From positions 434,001 through 498,000 of the forward strand of contig JAJEAN010000001.1 of NCBI GenBank assembly GCA_022822725.1: 64,000 nucleotides of DNA. The letters are read 5' to 3'. Positions 50,345 through 61,028 of the stretch are shown piece after piece (position 1 is the first letter of the stretch; the number at the start of each line of letters is the position of its first letter). Source of the stretch: Candidatus Latescibacterota bacterium. GTDB lineage: Bacteria > JAAXHH01. The position numbers and the translations under genes are program-made. The notes below the pieces were generated by a model. The model had not been told where the DNA came from and searched no databases. It saw nothing but the letters and a program-made list of their open reading frames with translations.

Positions 50345-50734
50345 GGATTACTCCCGTACAGGTTGAGTTTTGAATAATGCCAGGTTCAAACCATGCTTCG
50401 GTCAAATGACGTACTGCCTATATATAAGGATATAAGAGAAACGGGCCGTTGTCAATGATTGGGTAGGATGGGACAGCGGGTAACCGGGCCAGGATATCGA
50501 AGTCAAGACCCAAGAAGTGAAAGGTCACTTTTTCGATCGTGTATCGTGTATGGACTTCCCATAGACGAATTCACAGAACCAATAGATTTGATTTTGAGCA
50601 ATCGGGGTTCTGAAGCGTCTAAACTATAAGAGGGTTATGTCTGGCACTGGGGAATTCATTCCAGTAAACCCCATTCGGCCGACTGACTCAGACTAAATTT
50701 CATAGTGAAGAATACAATATGGAGGACTAGACAC
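50345..50734. other. Divergent low-GC spacer
   Basis: These 390 bases separate the thioredoxin-fold gene from the first metalloprotease-like gene. The left part holds the thioredoxin-gene promoter. The right part has a good GGAGG before the ATG at 50735 but no convincing sigma-70 promoter; a TTGAGC with a TCTAAA after 18 bases near 50594-50624 is the best weak candidate. GC content drops here and stays low to about 59500. Confidence 0.5.
50427..50455 (-). promoter_or_regulatory. Promoter of the thioredoxin-fold gene
   Basis: On the minus strand a perfect TTGACA and TATCCT are separated by 17 bases, about 85 bases upstream of the ATG at 50344. Confidence 0.7.
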
Positions 50735-51742
50735 ATGATCCGGTCTGTGATGGTTTTAAATAGATTCAAAGTGAGGATAATCCTCTGCAGTTTCTTTTGT
50801 ATGTATAGCGTCGCAACGGCTTCTGCGCAACAGACAGGGAGTTTCTCCTCCATGAACACCAATCCCAATGAAGTCCGTTTGGTTACTTCCGACATCGATC
50901 ATTTCTGGCTGGCGTACGACCTGTCGGAAGGCAAGACTACAGAAGAAAAAATAGAAATATTCGAATCGGAGTACTTCGCAAAGGGAAGTATCGGTCTTAA
51001 GGACTTCATCGAAACCAGAATCGAAAGCGCAGAGGGATTGGTCGAGGTAATCGAAGCCCGGCCGAGGTATTACGCTTCAATAAGAGAGAGCTCGAACCGT
51101 GTGTTGGATTTGACCAATCAGATCCGTGGATATATGCACAACTGGAAGCAACTGTACGACAAGGCGATATTCCCGGACGTGTACTTTCTGATAGGTAAAA
51201 TGAATTCTGGAGGAACTACATCAAACAACGGCCTTTTGATTGGGACCGAGATTTCCTGTCGAACGGACAATCTTCCCAAGGACGAACTGAACGAATGGTA
51301 TCTTGAAGTCCTCAAACCGGTAGAAGACATTCCATTTATCGTTATTCACGAACTTATACACGTGCAACAAGCTTATGATTTTGGAGAAAACACACTTCTG
51401 GGCCACTCCGTTTTCGAAGGCGCTGCCGACTTTCTTGGAGAGTTAGCAACTGGAAAACACATAAACCCTCATTTGCATGCGTATGGAGAAGCGCACGAGA
51501 CTGAATTATGGGAATCGTTCTCGAGTGAAATGTTACAGACCGACTTCAGCAACTGGCTCTACAACGGAGGCAATTCCACAGGGGCAAGACCGGCTGATCT
51601 TGGATATTACATAGGTTACAAAATATGTGAAGCTTACTATGGGAAGGCAGCCGATAAGAAGGCGGCTATAGAAGATATTTTGGCCATAAAGGACGGCCCC
51701 GATGCGCTACGTTTTCTAAAAAATAGCGGGTACGGTCATTGA
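50735..51742 (+). CDS. Exported HExxH metalloprotease-like protein (DUF2268/GldB-like)
   Basis: This 335-residue protein has a signal peptide (VRIILCSFFCMYSVATASAQ). The zinc motif HELIH is at residues 205-209, and FEGAADFLGE gives a candidate third ligand at E228, the spacing seen in DUF2268-type putative zinc proteases, including gliding-motility GldB-like proteins. The ATG at 50735 is preceded by GGAGG at 9 bases. The next gene, another HExxH protein, begins near its stop. The lower GC and codon use than the genes left of 50400 suggest separate ancestry. The substrate is unknown. Confidence 0.75.
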   Translation: MIRSVMVLNRFKVRIILCSFFCMYSVATASAQQTGSFSSMNTNPNEVRLVTSDIDHFWLAYDLSEGKTTEEKIEIFESEYFAKGSIGLKDFIETRIESAEGLVEVIEARPRYYASIRESSNRVLDLTNQIRGYMHNWKQLYDKAIFPDVYFLIGKMNSGGTTSNNGLLIGTEISCRTDNLPKDELNEWYLEVLKPVEDIPFIVIHELIHVQQAYDFGENTLLGHSVFEGAADFLGELATGKHINPHLHAYGEAHETELWESFSSEMLQTDFSNWLYNGGNSTGARPADLGYYIGYKICEAYYGKAADKKAAIEDILAIKDGPDALRFLKNSGYGH

Positions 51743-51807
51743 ACGATTACCGTATCCTCGATCGAGTTACACCGGCTCCTTCGTCCCCTAGAAACGGAGA
51801 AATAGTG

Positions 51808-52806
51808 ATGGCCAGGCTGAAAATCAACGTAGATCCCAGAATAGAACTTGTCATCACCATAAAGTTGCTGTGCGACTATGAGGGACTAACCAGGTACGAC
51901 GTGGCGTATTCCCAATGCATGCGGGATTACTTTTCGCCATTCAAAACGCATGATGCAGCCAAACTGTTTAAGAAAATCACAGAGCATGGCACTTACTCGG
52001 ACGCCTATCTGGGTCCGGTGTTGTCGCTTTCGAACCCGCCGGAACTTACGCCTCTATTCCCCTTCGAAAACCACGAATACTACATTCGAGCATTTCAAGA
52101 CGAAACCCGGTTTCGAACGTTCTACGAACTACTGAGTGATTTCGCGATCCAATCAGACTTCGGCACTTTTTTCGAAAGCCAAACCGCATACTTCCAATCC
52201 TTGGTCGACGAAGTTGCTAAAACGCTGGACAGTAAGAATTTGATCGACGTCCTGGAACTATACTACGGAATGCGACATCGGGACTACAATCTGGTTCTAA
52301 GTCCCTTGTTTCAACACGGTGGAATCGGGCCTCGAGTTCGAAACCCTGATAGCAGGCTGTCCATATTCAGCGTAATCGGGCCGGTTGGATCGGATGATGG
52401 TATCCCGATGTTCGGAACTAGAGAAGAATTGCTGGAACTCATCTGGCATGAGTTCGGCCATTCGTTCGTAAATCCCGTTACTGAACGACATCGCTCCGAC
52501 ATTGGGAAGTATGCTCCGTTGTTAGATCCAATTCTGGAGAAAATGTCGAAAACGGGTGGTTACGGAGATTGGGAGATCTGCCTTAACGAACATTTGATCC
52601 GTGCCATTACATCTCGATTGTTTCACCGTGAATGGGGTCCGAAACACGGTGATCGTTTACTCGTGCGGGATATAGAAAAGGGATTTCGCTACCTCCCTGC
52701 CCTTTTACGCGCACTTGAGGATTTCGAGCAACATCAAATTCAAAACACGACCTTCGCAGATTACTATCCTGCATTGCTGAAGTCTTTCGATACATATCTC
52801 GAATAA
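51808..52806 (+). CDS. DUF4932-like HExGH metalloprotease-like protein
   Basis: This 332-residue protein begins MARLKINVDPRIELVITIKLL, an opening typical of DUF4932. The zinc motif HEFGHSF is at residues 214-220. A later ICLNEHLIRAIT block holds a glutamate that could be the third ligand. A TTG at 51739 would extend it by 23 residues and overlap the upstream stop; the ATG at 51808 with GGAGA before it and the family N-terminus are preferred. No signal peptide is seen with this start. It lies 33 bases before the first sigma-fusion gene, so the two are probably co-transcribed. Confidence 0.75.
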   Translation: MARLKINVDPRIELVITIKLLCDYEGLTRYDVAYSQCMRDYFSPFKTHDAAKLFKKITEHGTYSDAYLGPVLSLSNPPELTPLFPFENHEYYIRAFQDETRFRTFYELLSDFAIQSDFGTFFESQTAYFQSLVDEVAKTLDSKNLIDVLELYYGMRHRDYNLVLSPLFQHGGIGPRVRNPDSRLSIFSVIGPVGSDDGIPMFGTREELLELIWHEFGHSFVNPVTERHRSDIGKYAPLLDPILEKMSKTGGYGDWEICLNEHLIRAITSRLFHREWGPKHGDRLLVRDIEKGFRYLPALLRALEDFEQHQIQNTTFADYYPALLKSFDTYLE

Positions 52807-52839: not shown

Positions 52840-54711
52840 ATGTCGACACTCATAGACAACGACACCTATAATGTCCAGCTTTGCCTGGACGGAAACGCGA
52901 ACGCCTTCGAACCATTGGTCCGGCGATATCAGAATGCTGCTTTCGCCGTGGCTTTGGGTTACCTCCGGGATCGGGCAGATGCCGAGGACGTGGTGCAGGA
53001 CGCCTTTATCTCGGCATATTGTAAATTATCGCAACTGAAGGACCCGGCTGTTTTCGGAAGTTGGTTTCACCGAATCGTAGTCAACCGTTGCAAGGAGTGG
53101 GTCCGCCGAAGCAGAATCGGTCGTCAAGTCCGTGTTGATGCGGATTCCGGAGGATTACACGATGAATTCGCTATCTCGGATCGTATCCATCGCAAATACA
53201 TCGAGCGTCTTGAAATCTGGGACGAAGTCGAGCTACTCCCAGAACACTATCGCCAAGTCGTCACGTTGTACTATTACACCGGATTCTCTCTGAAAGAAAT
53301 CGCCGCCTTCCTGGAGATCCCCGAATCGACTGCGAGGGGACGGCTCTACCAGTCACGGATCCGTCTTAGAAAAGCACTGTCGCCCCAGGAAAAGGAGACC
53401 ATCGTCATGAGCCAGATTGATGTAACCGCGGAAGTTCAGGATGTAGTCTGCAAGCTCGCCAAAGAAGACTTCGAAGAAACGATCTACATGGGCGACGTAG
53501 AAAACATCGTCCTTTATTGCGGAGTCAGTACTGAGGTGGAGATCGTCCGGACCAAAGGAGAGCAAACGATTGTCAGAGGGTCGAAAATCGGACTTGGATA
53601 TACCGAAGAAGAAGCGGATCACAACCTTGGAGGGTTTTCCGTAACCCACGATACTGTCGATGATTTCTATAAATCCGGTCCCCATGAAGGTGAGCTTTTT
53701 GTGGGTGTAGATTCAAGCGGCAACAAAAACGCAGCCATGACCAAACGGATCAGTGACCACTGGAAACGGGACTTGATGAACGACTGGATGCTGGACGAAG
53801 TATGTAACGGAGTCAGGTTGGTTGATCTTTATCCGGACCTGAAGTCCGATATCGATGCGTTTCCTCCGCTGCCAAAGCGAGCGCGAGCTAGCTTGAGCAA
53901 ATCAATACGGATTTCGGTTCACACGATGGAAGTACAGCCGATTCATGTACCGAACTCCGCCATGAAGGGAAACATCAAGGACGTTTTCCAGGTTTACTGG
54001 TCCGACGACTCCAAGGTCTTCGGACCGGCCTCGTATTGTCATGTTTCCATTGAGGTCCCGGCCGGGAAGAACATTTCGGTGTTCAGGGCAAAGCGAGTCA
54101 ACGCGGAGGGTTTGAAGGGTTCCTTGATGGTATATGCCTGCCATTCATGCCAGATAGCTGATATCGCGAAGGATGTGTACCTGTTCAACAGCATGTTTTC
54201 GGATATAAATGAAGTAGGTGGTATGTTCTGTCAGCGCATGTACGAATATGGCGGCGCGAGCTACGATGAGGGAATGATACGTAATATGGATGTGTGGGAA
54301 GGTAAACTCTCCAATGTAAAGGGTGGTGTGGATATCGATGTCGGCCGTTTCGTACTGGATGCCCAGGACTTGGAAGGCGACGTATCTATTTACAATCGAT
54401 TTGGCACAACCCGCTTGTACCAGTCATCCAGGGAATCCGGTACCCGGTGTAACCTCAGGACCGTTGCAGGTGAGACAAAGCTGGTTCTGGATGAAAGACT
54501 CGCGAAGAAGGTCAGCCTGGTGATGTATACACGCTGTGGCGTCTTGAAATTGGGTCAGGCGAAGGACCAGATGCGGCTGTATTCGACGTATAACGACGGG
54601 CATCGCATCACGGCTGGAACAACGTACGATACAACCCAAGCGGACTACCTGCTTCTTGCAGAAAGTGGCACAGCCGAAGTCGAGTTGTTAAACGGCTCCG
54701 ACTCGAAGTGA
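52840..54711 (+). CDS. ECF sigma factor fused to a large beta-rich C-terminal domain (copy 1)
   Basis: The protein has 623 residues. Residues about 15-95 are sigma region 2 (FEPLVRRYQNAAFAVALGYL, DAEDVVQDAFISAY). Region 4 is about 135-185 (LPEHYRQVVTLYYYTGFSLKE, IPESTARGRLYQSRIRLRKAL). An ordinary ECF sigma factor would end there. About 430 further residues follow in frame without membrane helices. They contain repeated strand-like phrases (EGDVSIYNRFGTTRLY, VAGETKLVLDE) reminiscent of DUF4097-type beta-roll domains, and a CHSC motif at residues 434-437. An in-frame ATG at codon 190 has AAGGAG 9 bases upstream. No anti-sigma gene is adjacent. The C-terminal domain may hold the sigma part inactive or sense a ligand; this is inference. 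Confidence 0.85.
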   Translation: MSTLIDNDTYNVQLCLDGNANAFEPLVRRYQNAAFAVALGYLRDRADAEDVVQDAFISAYCKLSQLKDPAVFGSWFHRIVVNRCKEWVRRSRIGRQVRVDADSGGLHDEFAISDRIHRKYIERLEIWDEVELLPEHYRQVVTLYYYTGFSLKEIAAFLEIPESTARGRLYQSRIRLRKALSPQEKETIVMSQIDVTAEVQDVVCKLAKEDFEETIYMGDVENIVLYCGVSTEVEIVRTKGEQTIVRGSKIGLGYTEEEADHNLGGFSVTHDTVDDFYKSGPHEGELFVGVDSSGNKNAAMTKRISDHWKRDLMNDWMLDEVCNGVRLVDLYPDLKSDIDAFPPLPKRARASLSKSIRISVHTMEVQPIHVPNSAMKGNIKDVFQVYWSDDSKVFGPASYCHVSIEVPAGKNISVFRAKRVNAEGLKGSLMVYACHSCQIADIAKDVYLFNSMFSDINEVGGMFCQRMYEYGGASYDEGMIRNMDVWEGKLSNVKGGVDIDVGRFVLDAQDLEGDVSIYNRFGTTRLYQSSRESGTRCNLRTVAGETKLVLDERLAKKVSLVMYTRCGVLKLGQAKDQMRLYSTYNDGHRITAGTTYDTTQADYLLLAESGTAEVELLNGSDSK

Positions 54712-55053
54712 ATAAACACAAAATACCGACCCCGTAGGTAACTCCACGTTTGATGTTTCGATCCAGAATCGAAGATGCCCTATTAGGAATCAGAACGCGC
54801 TCGCGTTACCGGGCATGAGTGAACATCCTTTCGAAACTGAACTCTCCTTTGCGAACCGATCAGAAATATCCATTGTCGAGATCGTCGGCAGGCGGACCAG
54901 GCGCTCTTTTGTCCGTGGCAACCCGGTTGTCTTTTCGATCCATTCATTTTAAGAGCATGAAGCGATTACACGTTTTTGTTTTAACCTTTGAAGCCGCAAT
55001 GTCGTCCTTTTCTACGTAGTGAATTGCTTCATTAGGTGTAACGAGACCACCCT
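54712..55053. other. Spacer between the two sigma-fusion genes
   Basis: These 342 bases contain no supportable gene. An ECF-type promoter is possible: AACC at 54983-54986, a 16-base gap and CGTC at 55003-55006, 48 bases before the second sigma-fusion ATG. No terminator hairpin with a T run is evident after copy 1. Confidence 0.4.
54982..55006 (+). promoter_or_regulatory. Possible ECF-type promoter of copy 2
   Basis: TAACC and CGTC are separated by 16 bases, resembling the general ECF pattern (AAC core at -35 and CGTC at -10). The match is short and could be chance. Confidence 0.25.
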
Positions 55054-56928
55054 ATGACGACCTTTACACAAGACGATACGTACAACATCCACCAGTGCCT
55101 GCAGGGAAACGCCAACGCCTTCGAGCCGCTGGTCCGGCGGTACCAGAACGCCGCTTTCGCCGTGGCTCTGGGTTACCTTCGGGATAGGACAGATGCTGAG
55201 GACGTGGTACAGGAAGCTTTTGTGGCCGCCTACTGCAAGCTGTCACAGTTGAAGGATCCCGCCATCTTTGGCAACTGGCTGCACAGGATAGTCGTCAATC
55301 GATGCAAGGAATGGAGCCGTCGGAAGAAAGTCAGCCGCCTGGTCCGTGTCGATCCGGATGCTGAACACATTCGCGACGAATTTACCGTTGCGGACTGGAT
55401 CCATCGGGAATACCTCGAGGGCCTCGAGCTCTGGGATGAAGTCGAGAGACTGCCCGAACACTATCGCAAGATTGTCACATTGTACTACTACACCGGGTTT
55501 ACACTGAAGGAGATTGCCGCCTTTCTTGACATTCCCGAATCGACCGCGAAAGGACGGCTTTACCAATCCCGAATCCGGCTGAGAGATGCGTTGTCGCCGC
55601 AGGAACAGGAGACCATCGCCATGAGCCAGATCGATGTCACCGAAGATGTCCAGGATGTGGTCTGCAAGATCGCCAGAGAAGATTTCGAAGAAACCATAGA
55701 AAAGGGAGATATGGAGAACATCGTCCTGTATTGCGGTGTCAATACAGAGGTGGATTTTGTACCTGCGCCAGGAAACCAGGTGGTTGTTAAGGGTACGAAA
55801 ATTGCACTTGGTTTGAGCGATGACAAAGCACATAGCAATGTCAGCGGATTACAAATATCCCATGACCAGGTCGACAATTATCTTGAAACGGGACCTCATG
55901 AAGGAGAGTTGTTTCTTGGCACCAGTAACCCTTATGGGTCTGACTACGTAGCCGCTACGTCGCCAATCAGTAAATTCTGGAGAAGTGATCTGATCAATGA
56001 CCGCGTGCTGAAGGACAACGTCGGCGGTGTAAGAACGGTCGACATGTTCCCGGATTTGCAGAATGAAGTCGATGGGTTTCTGCCCCTTCCGAAACCTGTT
56101 GGAAACAGTCTGGGGAAAGCAATACGTATCACCGTTCATGTTTCGAACGTACGATCCATTGAATTGCCGAGAACGGCCGTATCAGGAAATGTCGAGGCTG
56201 TTTTCCGGGCTGTTTGTACCGACGAAAAGAGTCTATTCGGTCATGCCACGTACTGCCATATGTCGATTTCGGTTCCCGCTGGGATGAAAATGTCGGTGTT
56301 CAGATCCAGTAAGGTCAACGCGGAAGGTTTGAAAGGTTCACTTGTAACGTATTCCTGCTATTCATGCCACATACAGGAGATCACGGGAGATGTTTACCTT
56401 TTCAACAGCGAGTTCTCCACAATACGACGGGTAAGTGGATTGTTGTATCAGCGTATGTACGGCTGCGGGGGAAGTAGCCTGGATCACGACATGTTATCAC
56501 GCCCGGATCAGTGGGAAGGTAAAATCGAGTCCATCGGTGGCGGTGTGGATATTGACGTCGGCCGTACAGCGGTGGATGCACGTGATTTAAACGGAGATGT
56601 TTCCATTTTCAACCGCTATGGCACAACCCGGTTGTGCTACACTGACGGGATTCAAAAAGGCAGGTGCAACCTCCGTACCGTTTCCGGTAACCTGATTCTG
56701 GCATTAAACGAAAAAGCTGCAAAAACAACCAGCCTGGTGATGCATACCCGTTGCGGTGTGCTGAAGTATGAACAGGTAAAAGAGTTGATGCCTCTGAATG
56801 CATGGTCGAGTAATGATATCAGGATGTCATTGGGGACTACCTATGAATATGGAAACACCGATGTCGTTCTCGCTACGGAAAGCGGACAGGCCAGTATTGA
56901 AGTGCTTAAGTATCCTGAACATGGTTGA
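55054..56928 (+). CDS. ECF sigma factor fused to a large beta-rich C-terminal domain (copy 2)
   Basis: This 624-residue paralogue of the preceding sigma fusion is collinear over its whole length. Most residues of the sigma part (1-190) are identical, and the C-terminal 430 residues are clearly related but more diverged. Shared marks include LYCGV, GPHEGELF, VNAEGLKGSL, the CxxC pair (CYSC at 435-438), GGVDIDVGR, GDVSIFNRYGTTRL and TRCGVLK. As in copy 1, an internal ATG at codon 190 (55621) has AGGAG 9 bases before it. It lies 131 bases before the FtsX-family permease gene. No anti-sigma gene is adjacent. Confidence 0.85.
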   Translation: MTTFTQDDTYNIHQCLQGNANAFEPLVRRYQNAAFAVALGYLRDRTDAEDVVQEAFVAAYCKLSQLKDPAIFGNWLHRIVVNRCKEWSRRKKVSRLVRVDPDAEHIRDEFTVADWIHREYLEGLELWDEVERLPEHYRKIVTLYYYTGFTLKEIAAFLDIPESTAKGRLYQSRIRLRDALSPQEQETIAMSQIDVTEDVQDVVCKIAREDFEETIEKGDMENIVLYCGVNTEVDFVPAPGNQVVVKGTKIALGLSDDKAHSNVSGLQISHDQVDNYLETGPHEGELFLGTSNPYGSDYVAATSPISKFWRSDLINDRVLKDNVGGVRTVDMFPDLQNEVDGFLPLPKPVGNSLGKAIRITVHVSNVRSIELPRTAVSGNVEAVFRAVCTDEKSLFGHATYCHMSISVPAGMKMSVFRSSKVNAEGLKGSLVTYSCYSCHIQEITGDVYLFNSEFSTIRRVSGLLYQRMYGCGGSSLDHDMLSRPDQWEGKIESIGGGVDIDVGRTAVDARDLNGDVSIFNRYGTTRLCYTDGIQKGRCNLRTVSGNLILALNEKAAKTTSLVMHTRCGVLKYEQVKELMPLNAWSSNDIRMSLGTTYEYGNTDVVLATESGQASIEVLKYPEHG

Positions 56929-57059: not shown

Positions 57060-59459
57060 ATGTATAGAAACTGCCTTGCCGTCTTTCTGAGGAACCTGCT
57101 CAGGCAAAGGGGCTATTCGGCGATCAATGTTCTGGGCCTGGCCATTGGCCTTGCTTCCTGCATTCTGATCCTGCTCTACGTGCAGGACGAACTCAGCTAC
57201 GACCAGCACCATGAGAACAAAGACCGGATTTACCGAATAGTGGTATCAGATACCGCGGAAGGCAGAACGGACGAATGGGCGAGGACGCCATCAGCATGGG
57301 GTCCGGTCCTGATGGAAGAGTATCCCGAAATCGAGCTTTTCACACGGTGGAAGCCGCCGAACACCAGTTGGCTCATTGGTTACGGAGAAAAACGTTACGA
57401 GGAGAAACACTTCATTTTTGCGGATTCAACCGTATTTGACATTTTTACCATCCCTCTGGTGCAGGGCAATCCCGAGACGGCCCTGACCAAACCCCATACC
57501 GTGGTAGTCTCGGAAACCATGGCGACGATGATTTTCGGGAATGAAAACCCGATGGGGAAAGTGATCTCCGTCGACGAAATCTACATGTTTACCGTTACGG
57601 GTATCATGCGGGGCATGCCGAAGAACTCGCATTTTCACGCTGACTTTCTGGCCTCGTTTTCCACTCTGGCAGCGAGCGGACTGTACGATGAGCCCACCAC
57701 GATCCAGAACTCGGACAGAACCCTGTATACCTATCTCATGATTAAAGAGGGTTACGCACCGGAAGACCTGGAAGACAAACTTTCCCAGTTTCCGGTGAGA
57801 CACCTCGGTGAACGACTGGAGACCCTGGGCATGGAAATCATCCCCTACCTGCAGCCGCTCACCGATATCCACCTGCACTCCAATCTCAAACTCGAAATCA
57901 AAGCAAATAGCAATATCCAATATGTCTACATCTTTACCTCGGTGGCTGTATTCATGTTACTGATCGCCTGCGTAAACTTCATGAACCTTTCCACGGCCCG
58001 TTCCGCAGGAAGGGCGCGGGAGGTCGGTATTCGGAAAGTGCTGGGTGTCCGGCGGGTCCAGTTGGCCGTGCAATTCATCGGTGAGTCGGTAATCTACTCC
58101 TTCATCGCACTGGCCGTCGCCCTTGTACTGGTACACCTGATCCTTCCCGAATTCAGCCGGTTTTCCGGGAAAGAACTGGAAATGGATTACGATTCCACGT
58201 GGTTGATGCCGGCCCTGCTGGCCATCACACTTTGTACCGGGATTGTCGCCGGCGGATATCCCGCCTTCGTGCTTTCCTCCTTCAGGCCGGTTGCCGTACT
58301 GAGCGGAGTGTTGAAGGCGGGGGTTCCCCAATCGCATTTCAGAAAAGCGCTGATCACCTTCCAGTTCGTCGCCTCGATCATCATGATTGTCGGAACCGTT
58401 GTAATACTGGCGCAACTGGAGTACATGAGAAATAAGAAACTGGGATTCGACAAAGAGCACGTGGTGGTTGTCCGACTGCCCGATAATGAGGCCGTTCAGG
58501 GTTATCCGGCCTTTAAGGACAAGGTCTTGCAGTATCCTGAAGTCGTTAACTTGAGTACGACAACCAGCGTTCCCGGCAGGCTGACTGCGACCAGTTTCAT
58601 TCAGCCGGAAGGATACATCGTGGAGGACACTCCGCTCATCCCCACCATTTGGACCGGTTTCGACTTCGTAGAAACAATGGGCATCGATATAACATCGGGC
58701 CGTTCGTTTTCTCGCGAAGTCGCCTCGGACGACTACTCTGTTCTTGTAAATGAAACGGCCGCCAGGACATTCGGATGGGAAGATCCGATTGGCAAGGAGT
58801 TTAAGTACACACATACACCGGACTATCCTCCAATGCACGTTGTCGGCGTCATGGCGGATTTTCACTATCATTCGCTTCACCAACGTATTGAACCCCTGTT
58901 GATTCTGTTTTGGGAAGGCGGCAATACGATGGTCGTCAGACTGAGCAGCCAGAGCCTGGCCCGGGGACTAGAAATACTGCAGGATCAGTGGCGCGAATCC
59001 TATCCGAACCATCCCGCCATGGAATCCTATTTCCTCGACCAGGACCTCGAACGAAAATACGCCGCCGAACAACGGCTAGGCTCCGTCTTCATTGCCGGGA
59101 CGGTCCTGTCCATTCTCATTGCCTGCCTGGGCCTGCTGGGATTGGCATCTTACATGGCCGAACAGCGCATCCGGGAGATCGGCGTTCGCAAAGCCGTCGG
59201 CGCAACTATTTCGAACGTTATCCTGCTGTTCTCGAAGGACTTTACCAGGCTGATCCTAATTGCGTTCGTTCTTGGCGTTCCCATCAGTTACTACATCATG
59301 CAGGGGTGGCTGGGGGATTTTCCGTATCGCATCGAAATGAGTTGGGGGGTGTTCATATTCACAGGGCTCGCGGCGTTGCTTATCACTTGGCTGACGGTGG
59401 GATATCATGCGCTGAAGGCCGCCACGACGAATCCCGCCGATGCGCTGCGTTCCGAGTAA
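57060..59459 (+). CDS. FtsX/MacB-family ABC transporter permease
   Basis: This 799-residue protein begins with a short cytoplasmic segment and a membrane helix (YSAINVLGLAIGLASCILILLYV). A periplasmic MacB-like core (YDQHHENKDRIYRIVVSD and following) precedes three helices near 290-430 containing SAGRAREVGIRKVLGVRR. A second periplasmic core and a final group of helices with RIREIGVRKAVGAT follow. This doubled FtsX layout is typical of Bacteroidota-like permeases that work with a LolD-type ATPase in lipoprotein, peptide or signal export. The ATPase gene follows after 141 bases. Confidence 0.9.
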   Translation: MYRNCLAVFLRNLLRQRGYSAINVLGLAIGLASCILILLYVQDELSYDQHHENKDRIYRIVVSDTAEGRTDEWARTPSAWGPVLMEEYPEIELFTRWKPPNTSWLIGYGEKRYEEKHFIFADSTVFDIFTIPLVQGNPETALTKPHTVVVSETMATMIFGNENPMGKVISVDEIYMFTVTGIMRGMPKNSHFHADFLASFSTLAASGLYDEPTTIQNSDRTLYTYLMIKEGYAPEDLEDKLSQFPVRHLGERLETLGMEIIPYLQPLTDIHLHSNLKLEIKANSNIQYVYIFTSVAVFMLLIACVNFMNLSTARSAGRAREVGIRKVLGVRRVQLAVQFIGESVIYSFIALAVALVLVHLILPEFSRFSGKELEMDYDSTWLMPALLAITLCTGIVAGGYPAFVLSSFRPVAVLSGVLKAGVPQSHFRKALITFQFVASIIMIVGTVVILAQLEYMRNKKLGFDKEHVVVVRLPDNEAVQGYPAFKDKVLQYPEVVNLSTTTSVPGRLTATSFIQPEGYIVEDTPLIPTIWTGFDFVETMGIDITSGRSFSREVASDDYSVLVNETAARTFGWEDPIGKEFKYTHTPDYPPMHVVGVMADFHYHSLHQRIEPLLILFWEGGNTMVVRLSSQSLARGLEILQDQWRESYPNHPAMESYFLDQDLERKYAAEQRLGSVFIAGTVLSILIACLGLLGLASYMAEQRIREIGVRKAVGATISNVILLFSKDFTRLILIAFVLGVPISYYIMQGWLGDFPYRIEMSWGVFIFTGLAALLITWLTVGYHALKAATTNPADALRSE

Positions 59460-59600: not shown

Positions 59601-60305
59601 GTGCGTCATTCCATTCATTCCCCATCCCTGATCTCCATCGAAGACCTGCATAAGTCCTTCCCGATGGGAGACGGCCGCATTCCCGCGCTCCGGGGGGTAT
59701 CCGCCACCATCAACAGGGGCGATTACGTGGCCGTGATGGGCCGTTCTGGATCCGGAAAATCCACCCTGATGAACATCCTGGGCTGCCTGGACACGCCCAC
59801 GGCGGGCAGATACGCCCTCGACGGCAGGTCCGTCGGAGATCTCACGGACGACGAACAGGCCTTCATCCGAAACCGGATGATCGGGTTCGTGTTCCAGGCC
59901 TTCAACCTGCTCCCGAGAATGGACGCACTGCACAACGTAGAACTGCCGCTGCTCTACCGCGGCATGGACAGCAGGGAACGGCGTTGGCGCTCCATGGAAG
60001 CCATGGAAGCGGTGGGCGTGAGCGACCGGGCGCGCCACAGGCCCAACGAGATGTCGGGCGGGCAGCGCCAGCGCGTGGCCATCGCCCGAGCGCTGGTCGG
60101 CGAGCCTTCCATCATACTGGCGGACGAGCCGACAGGAAACCTGGACAGCGGGACCGGGGAGGAGATCATGGCGATTTTCGATCGCCTGAACCAGGAAGGA
60201 CATACGATCGTACTGGTGACCCACGAAGCACACGTCGCCAGGCACTGCAGGCGGATCATACGACTGCGCGATGGTGTGATTGAGGAGGACCGTCCGATTG
60301 TGTAA
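59601..60305 (+). CDS. ABC transporter ATP-binding protein (LolD/MacB type)
   Basis: This 234-residue ATPase has Walker A GRSGSGKSTLMNILG, signature MSGGQRQRVAIARAL, Walker B IILADEPTGNLDSG and switch VTHEAHVA. The GTG at 59601 is the only start that keeps the full first strand (LISIEDLHKSF); its ribosome site is weak. It is the natural partner of the FtsX-family permease just upstream. GC content rises back to the window average from here on. Confidence 0.9.
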   Translation: MRHSIHSPSLISIEDLHKSFPMGDGRIPALRGVSATINRGDYVAVMGRSGSGKSTLMNILGCLDTPTAGRYALDGRSVGDLTDDEQAFIRNRMIGFVFQAFNLLPRMDALHNVELPLLYRGMDSRERRWRSMEAMEAVGVSDRARHRPNEMSGGQRQRVAIARALVGEPSIILADEPTGNLDSGTGEEIMAIFDRLNQEGHTIVLVTHEAHVARHCRRIIRLRDGVIEEDRPIV

Positions 60306-60689: not shown

Positions 60690-61028
60690 ATGGAAAACGT
60701 ACATCTCTGGGCTCAGCCCCTGATCCTGCTGACCGCCTTCATCTTCTTCTGGCGGGAGGCGAAAGGCAGCCGGCATGAACTGAAAGCCGACATAGGGGAA
60801 GAACTGAATAAGATCGACGCGAGATTCGACCGTTTCGAGGACAACCTTAGGAAAGAGTTAGGCAAAGTCGATTCGACGTTCGACAAGGTAATCGCGAAGT
60901 TCGATCGTTTCGAAAACGAAATGCGGAAAGACCTGGGTGAGATGGACAAACGGATTGCACATATGGAAGACAAGGTGGACGCCCGTTTCGACCGGCTCGA
61001 GCGCATTTTGCTTGAACAGGGGAAGTAG
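60690..61028 (+). CDS. Small membrane-anchored coiled-coil protein
   Basis: This 112-residue protein has an N-terminal membrane helix (LWAQPLILLTAFIFFW) and a long charged coiled coil with repeated (A)RFDRFE words (residues about 40-105). AAAGGAG precedes the ATG at 60690. It resembles the preceding 82-residue protein in layout and may be a diverged duplicate. It lies 9 bases ahead of comEC. No function is assigned. Confidence 0.7.
   Translation: MENVHLWAQPLILLTAFIFFWREAKGSRHELKADIGEELNKIDARFDRFEDNLRKELGKVDSTFDKVIAKFDRFENEMRKDLGEMDKRIAHMEDKVDARFDRLERILLEQGK

Follow-up and report, generated by a model that had tools for sequence, protein, structure and literature searches.

ECF sigma factors fused to a predicted Toastrack-fold tail in Candidatus Latescibacterota

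As a rule, an extracytoplasmic function (ECF) sigma factor is held by an anti-sigma factor encoded as a protein of its own. What might play this role when the sigma factor carries a long extension of its own is the question raised by a 64,000-nucleotide stretch of DNA (the window) from a Candidatus Latescibacterota bacterium (assembly GCA_022822725.1, contig JAJEAN010000001.1, positions 434,001 to 498,000). Here two successive forward-strand genes, copy a (52840-54711) and copy b (55054-56928), each join an ECF sigma factor to a large C-terminal tail. We lean toward the view that each product is a one-protein ECF regulator, made of a two-domain ECF head, a linker, and one cytosolic Toastrack domain that would replace the anti-sigma factor. 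Residue numbers below are those of each copy.

Sigma heads and the fold of the tail

Both open reading frames (ORFs) are intact and collinear, and encode 623 (copy a) and 624 (copy b) amino acids. In both, Sigma70_r2 (residues 26-92) and Sigma70_r4_2 (residues 124/125-176) exceed the Pfam cut-off, and the NCBIfam model TIGR02937 (sigma70-ECF) is also above cut-off. No sigma region 1 or 3 model was found in either copy when the Pfam listing was extended to E up to 1, so that the heads are ECF sigma factors, having regions 2 and 4 without 1.1 or 3. Beyond residue 198, no Pfam model was matched in either copy at the same limit. The highest 19-residue Kyte-Doolittle means, 1.03 in copy a and 1.05 in copy b, both lie within the head and are too low to indicate a membrane helix. 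Neither a zf-HC2/ZAS domain nor a membrane helix was found in the extension (Pfam on both copies and on the 13 tails described below; hydropathy), nor was a SnoaL-like or TPR match in the two copies (E up to 1) or in the 13 tails.

The tail was modeled alone, as 434 residues of copy b from residue 191 with a 13-sequence alignment. The model (m4afd0f032662) is mostly beta strand, with a mean predicted local distance difference test (pLDDT) of 66.5 and a predicted template modeling score of 0.72. Foldseek ranked 4QRK first (E 4.4e-5, probability 1.00), followed by 3LYC, 4OPW, 3PET, and 3LJY. With VIA-align, whose list does not exclude families missing from it, the best match was 3LYC (Z 14.0, root-mean-square deviation (rmsd) 3.5, 224/241 residues), then 3LJY (13.7), 3JX8 (13.0), 4OPW (12.8; 217 aligned, rmsd 3.3), 3PET (12.1), 7MUC (10.7), 4YGU (10.2), and 4QRK (9.0; 164 aligned, rmsd 3.9), with lower matches at 8.8 (polygalacturonase) and below. 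Both 4QRK and 4OPW are given as examples of Toastrack, a domain that unifies DUF4097, DUF2154, and DUF2807 (PMC11237479, cited here, like PMC8999054 below, from excerpts).

By the fold of its model, the tail is a predicted Toastrack of the DUF4097 type, recognizable as such despite nearly silent sequence searches. Since the fold matches start and stop near the ends of the tail, it would be one enlarged Toastrack with insertions; the best-matching solved chains have 212-247 residues, against 434 in the fusion tail, which stays below the Pfam cut-off. DUF4097 was touched by Pfam in four of the 13 tails, and when 10 of the 13 were listed singly the same four scored 11.1-16.5 bits. The tail profile gave one match to Protein Data Bank (PDB) sequences (E 0.33), and DUF4097 proteins of the phylum, searched likewise, had no Toastrack entry among the matches listed. 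The full-length model is poor (pLDDT 56.7), and its fold search returned sigma structures, with 4QRK at rank 17.

Much of this architecture had been described in an earlier reading of the window from its letters alone (the sequence-only reading): two collinear genes with a complete ECF sigma factor and some 430 further residues, no membrane helices in the tail, and no adjacent anti-sigma gene. The ORFs with their region 2 and region 4 domains, the location of the hydropathy maxima in the head, and the neighbors scanned (DUF2268, DUF4932, FtsX/MacB permease, and ABC ATPase) agree with it. Its guess of a DUF4097-like fold is backed by the matches to 4QRK, 4OPW, and 3LYC in Foldseek and VIA-align. 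The tail, which it called unrecognized, is indeed so by sequence, no Pfam family being assigned, but not by fold, since structure prediction and fold search returned Toastrack.

Each copy can be divided into a head (residues 1-182; 52840-53385 in copy a and 55054-55599 in copy b, from Pfam), a conserved linker (residues 183-235; 53386-53544 and 55600-55758, from the alignment and dN), and a Toastrack-fold tail including the stop codon. The tail of copy b (55759-56928) is placed by the model and its fold search, and that of copy a (53545-54711) by homology to it and by fold. The two copies are identical at 371/618 aligned residues, distributed as 139/182 in the head, 41/53 in the linker, 67/159 in residues 236-395, and 123/229 in residues 396-624. 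The ratio of nonsynonymous to synonymous divergence (dN/dS) is 0.06 in the head and 0.27 and 0.23 in the tail segments, rough values, as dS is near saturation (2.2 in the head, about 1.8 in the tail; only the short linker is lower, at 0.84). Regions 2 and 4 are thus both present and under purifying selection. Gene conversion as the cause of the similar heads was considered and left no sign, dS being near saturation in head and tail alike; the contrast between head and tail in this pair is one of selection, as far as the rough dN/dS values go. Four cysteines (204, 227, 401, and 567 in copy b numbering) and H402 are invariant across the 13 aligned copies, consistent with a possible metal or redox site.

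Distribution and separate histories of head and tail

A tail profile built from the 13 complete fusion copies was searched against 384 genomes, of which 12 (G000-G011) belong to the genus of the window, and 372 are others; 16 genomes, the 12 included, represent the phylum. G000 is the window's genome (3.8 Mb, 9 contigs, C9 being one of them). At E 1e-4 the fusion occurs in 11/384 genomes, all of this genus, and in none of the 372 others, including the four other genomes of the phylum; absence elsewhere does not follow from a sample of this limited size. Three matches outside the genus at E 0.05 were taken as chance (E 0.018-0.040, over 57-81 profile positions). The fusion is full-length in 10 of the 12 genus genomes, the window's included, with two copies in G000, G003, and G010 and one in G001, G002, G005, G006, G007, G008, and G011. 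G009 has a tail fragment at a contig edge, and none was found in G004, an unsure absence because this assembly consists of 520 contigs and is 90% complete. Apart from its two full copies, G000 has matches to the sigma domain only. No tail or fusion was found on plasmids, a pattern scan of a collection of genome contigs found one relative, and PADLOC gave no match.

The sequence-only reading had pointed to relatives as the place to look for the fusion and for its copy number, and they keep it in 11/12 genomes with one or two copies each. It had also allowed for separate genes joined by assembly error, which is refuted by the full-length fusions in 10 genomes; together with the contig-edge fragment in an eleventh, they leave an assembly error or a chance read-through with next to no probability.

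Head and tail do not share one history. Trees of the neighboring ABC ATPase and ComEC genes (11 genomes each) and of peroxiredoxin (8 genomes) split the genus, as sampled, into {G000, G001, G002, G005, G006, G008, G010} and {G003, G007, G009, G011}; the TonB_C gene tree departs from this split and the LipA tree has no resolution. The tail tree crosses it, grouping G003y with G000a, G005, and G010a (100/99; these four are the type-A copies) and G007 with G001 (100/99). The head tree places G001 with G002, G006, and G008 (95/97), and G007 with G000a, G005, and G010a (98/94). In approximately unbiased (AU) tests, whose groups were picked after the trees had been inspected, G001+G007 is rejected for the head (p 4e-6), while for the tail G001+G002+G006+G008 (p 8e-43) and G007 with the a copies (p 4e-40) are rejected; G003y with the a copies is not rejected for the head (p 0.053).

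Compared with G002 in 60-residue windows, G001 is 88-98% identical as far as residue 240; identity is 63% over residues 211-270 and 29-47% further on, with the best breakpoint at 261/262 against G002 and at 276/277 against G008. Silent sites follow the same course (dS of 0.54 in the head, 0.67 in the linker, 1.82 in the middle, then saturation), and the conflict between head and tail in G001 therefore reflects recombination and not merely stronger selection on the head. The G001 gene joins the sigma half of one lineage to the tail of another. The sequence-only reading had seen a conserved head and a diverged tail, and this stands for the window pair, but the contrast across the genus is partly due to recombination.

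A tentative extension, which we would not yet call probable, is that the protein is a modular switch: recombination immediately behind the linker would repeatedly have supplied an ECF head of fixed promoter preference with other kinds of Toastrack sensor tail. If so, species of this genus would alter the sensed input without altering the genes transcribed.

The upstream element and the possible action of the tail

The upstream regions of the fusion copies share TTTT(G/A)A(T/C)-N17-C(G/A)TC. The expression TTT[GA]A[CTG]-N17-C[GA]TC, written after the sequences were inspected, is present in 13/13 operon upstream regions (167-500 bases each), which are homologous and hence non-independent. Spacers of 11-16 and 18-22 bases occur in 0/13 and one of 23 bases in 1/13, and over 400 dinucleotide shuffles the mean was 0.09 and the maximum 2. 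When 11 of the 13 promoters are aligned on the motif itself, the mean majority-base frequency is 0.95 for TTTT, 0.85 for GAY, and 0.95 for CRTC, compared with 0.61 in the spacer and 0.64 downstream. It speaks for the element that other spacings fail while the spacer sequence varies.

It precedes the first gene of the operon, whether this is the fusion (8 copies), the DUF2268 gene (G000, G003, G005, G010), or a permease gene (G007, 121 bases before the ATG, in a region whose end was set by hand). In the window, the putative promoter of copy b (54979-55006, forward strand, TTTTAAC-N17-CGTC) is the only exact genome match of the strict pattern, and that of the first operon (50592-50619, forward strand, TTTTGAG-N17-CGTC), seen by eye, is the least typical of the 13. 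A matrix scan (threshold 15) found the element upstream of the G003 DUF2268 gene and the G007 permease gene and missed it upstream of DUF2268 in G000, G005, and G010, where it was seen by eye. Promoters of ECF sigma factors carry AAC-like and CGT-like elements 16-17 bases apart, and we take the upstream element to resemble them. The fusion likely regulates its own expression, as suggested by an ECF-like element before the apparent operons of all 13 complete copies.

A relaxed pattern gave 18 sites in 11 genus genomes (without G011), seven at fusion loci and 11 elsewhere, against four for its reversed control. Sites before DUF4097 genes in G001 and G008 were considered as targets and rejected: the G008 site straddles the start codons of its gene, and G000 does not preserve the site. 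Of the other off-locus sites, the four in G000, G004, G005, and G009 are orthologous to one another, as are the two in G001 and G002.

How might the tail act? Toastrack has been proposed as a docking surface near the membrane that helps assemble sub-membrane stress-signaling complexes; its genes are reported to share operons with those of ABC transporters and to be linked, likewise by operon, to a sigma factor (PMC11237479). For ECF factors with extensions, the C-terminal extension of ECF41 is reported to be inhibitory, the TPR tail of ECF42 to be essential for activity, and IutY to be a proteolytically activated ECF fusion (PMC8999054). In the one-protein regulator that we favor, the tail would most likely control the sigma head in cis, holding or presenting it via the conserved linker, and would change state when a protein or ligand docks at the inner face of the inner membrane. 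The head would then transcribe from TTTGAT-N17-CGTC-like promoters, its own operon first, together with the genes attached to the operon, namely metallopeptidases and, in some species, a MacB/FtsX permease.

Like the TPR tails of ECF42, for which this has been proposed, the tail might instead serve as a docking platform with a positive role, required both for activity and for contact with a partner, and would then not be an inhibitor. The proposed docking role of Toastrack and the essential ECF42 tails agree with this, as does the linker beside sigma region 4 being the best conserved part of the extension; the present evidence does not separate it from inhibition in cis, and we hold it to be a serious if less probable alternative. 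Proteolytic activation, in which the upstream metallopeptidases of the operon would cut the tail and free the head as in the IutY precedent, seems improbable to us. A DUF2268 gene is found upstream of 4/4 type-A copies, adjacent in G003 and with the DUF4932 gene between in G000, G005, and G010, and these copies span both core-gene clades. Upstream of the fusion in G001, G002, G007, and G011 there is none (0/4), while the contigs of G006, G008, and G009 end too soon to judge. The metallopeptidase genes are lacking beside the other tail types, no cleavage site is known, and the DUF2268 protein, which is hydrophobic close to its N-terminus (19-residue mean of 1.59, starting at residue 23), may not be cytosolic. 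A structural or adhesin-like tail retained after a chance fusion, with no regulatory role, is less probable again: several solved structures of this fold among the Foldseek matches are titled putative adhesins, and the tail evolves faster than the head, but it has no membrane helix, is entire in the 13 complete copies, and has segments that look constrained (dN/dS 0.03-0.44 where finite, 16 pairs computed).

Several observations speak against a regulator with a Toastrack tail and lower our confidence in it. Of the matched structures, 4QRK and 4OPW are named as Toastracks in PMC11237479, and 3LYC, 3LJY, 3JX8, 3PET, and 4YGU are presumed members grouped by fold. A type IV secretion chain, 7MUC, which is not known to be a Toastrack, reaches Z 10.7 in VIA-align, above 4YGU and 4QRK. 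The tail model is moderate overall, with pLDDT mostly 50-75 at residues of about 251-360 and below 50 at about 363-398, 471-486, and 571-599 (the poorly modeled tail residues 173-208, 281-296, and 381-409). None of the 13 tails reaches the Pfam DUF4097 cut-off (best 16.5 vs 22.9 bits), and a profile-profile comparison against the phylum's DUF4097 proteins (11 sequences) gives a weak match (probability 20%, E 0.0011, 73 columns). The upstream element is short, its expression was drawn up post hoc, and its loose form has one match in the window vs 1.08 expected by chance. Further targets were not found: besides its own promoter, the strict pattern has four two-mismatch sites in the genome, the same as the control. 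Finally, the fusion heads show no clear grouping with the ECF of the unfused row described below.

Known systems, related fusions, and neighboring genes

Extension types in the ECF review comprise SnoaL, TPR, WD40-like, Cys-rich, membrane/zinc-finger, and carbohydrate-binding domains (PMC8999054). Toastrack is absent from the types in its excerpts, and the claim of the sequence-only reading that the tail differs from known ECF extensions holds to that extent. Like known ECFs with a C-terminal extension, the fusion has a two-domain head, an extra C-terminal domain, and no adjacent anti-sigma gene; unlike them, it continues into a Toastrack, some 390-430 residues long and without a membrane helix. 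With Toastrack proteins (DUF4097/DUF2154/DUF2807, e.g., LiaG), it shares the fold, the envelope and ABC-transporter context, and a link to transcription, but it lies directly behind the sigma factor, whereas the excerpts of PMC11237479 speak of an operonically linked one. The fusion was not met in the excerpted literature on ECF extensions and Toastrack (PMC11237479, PMC8103513, PMC8999054); the 2021 ECF classification lies outside it, and a described group is possible there.

The fusion would be a variant among ECF factors with regulatory extensions. Its regulator seems built in, with a fold that would connect control by ECF factors with the Toastrack proteins known from envelope stress. A role of Toastrack in transcription has been proposed, and direct control becomes testable here with one protein and one promoter, since the head, the tail, the element upstream, and a chimera of head and tail that occurs in nature are all defined.

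DUF4097 proteins above cut-off occur in 15/15 phylum genomes searched. In G000, an unfused row of genes on C9 (about 556-559 kb) encodes an ECF (C9:558499-559035) and a DUF4097 protein whose N-terminus is hydrophobic and signal-like. Between them lies a presumed membrane anti-sigma factor, which combines zf-HC2 and HEAT repeats with a stretch of hydrophobic residues. Like the fusion, the row sets an ECF beside a Toastrack, but as three separate proteins. The best tree pairs the fusion heads with a plain ECF on a long branch (92/81), and not with the row ECF; the heads of ECF-ankyrin proteins come next (92/89). AU tests reject neither the fusion+ankyrin grouping (p 0.191) nor that of the fusion with the row ECF (p 0.104). 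The ECF-ankyrin fusions of the phylum resemble the family studied here in their heads, which at 27-38% identity to the fusion heads are some of the closest found beyond this family, and in having a long C-terminal interaction domain, but this domain consists of ankyrin repeats (Pfam, 9/9 scanned), not Toastrack.

These ECF proteins with long ankyrin tails (nine of nine scanned) come from seven phylum genomes including the window's (e.g., G000:C9:954928-955395) and have 418-774 residues, with some frames running off the stretch. Another extended ECF, in open frames of 477-479 residues, occurs in seven genus genomes (e.g., G000:C9:2055142; also G001:C101, G002:C31, G004:C453, G006:C91, G008:C27, and G011:C275), and the one scanned has about 290 residues after the sigma domain without a convincing Pfam match. 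Tandem genes at L073:3852-6206 carry regular GGDI-type repeats; Pfam assigns DUF4097 to the second gene and not to the first.

The apparent operon of copy a starts with a DUF2268/GldB-like predicted metallopeptidase gene (50705-51742, forward strand, Pfam), whose relatives stand upstream of the type-A copies in G003, G005, and G010. A DUF4932 gene (51739-52806, forward strand, Pfam E 7e-52) overlaps it by 4 bases and also occurs at the G005 and G010 loci; its HEFGH motif suggests a predicted peptidase. Downstream of copy b lie an FtsX/MacB-type permease gene (57060-59459, forward strand, Pfam), 90% identical to its relative in G010 and 43% to that in G007, and an ABC ATPase gene (59601-60305, forward strand, Pfam). 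In G007 the permease gene is upstream of the fusion, and a stop at codon 188 interrupts it in frame. The fusion is followed by relatives of the ABC ATPase and of a ComEC-like gene in 11/11 loci compared. Between the fusion and the ABC ATPase, a TonB_C gene on the opposite strand is present at seven of the 11 loci (partial in G003), and in G000 and G010 the FtsX/MacB permease takes its place; a MacB-type permease is near the fusion in 3/11 loci. The locus thus exchanges genes between fixed neighbors. A small protein encoded at 60690-61028 shares 92% identity with its G001 counterpart but 49-68% with the counterparts in nine other relatives, a further sign of exchange at this locus. Between the two copies lies a weak terminator-like hairpin (54917-54931, forward strand), one of six such sites in the scanned region against a shuffle mean of 9.2.

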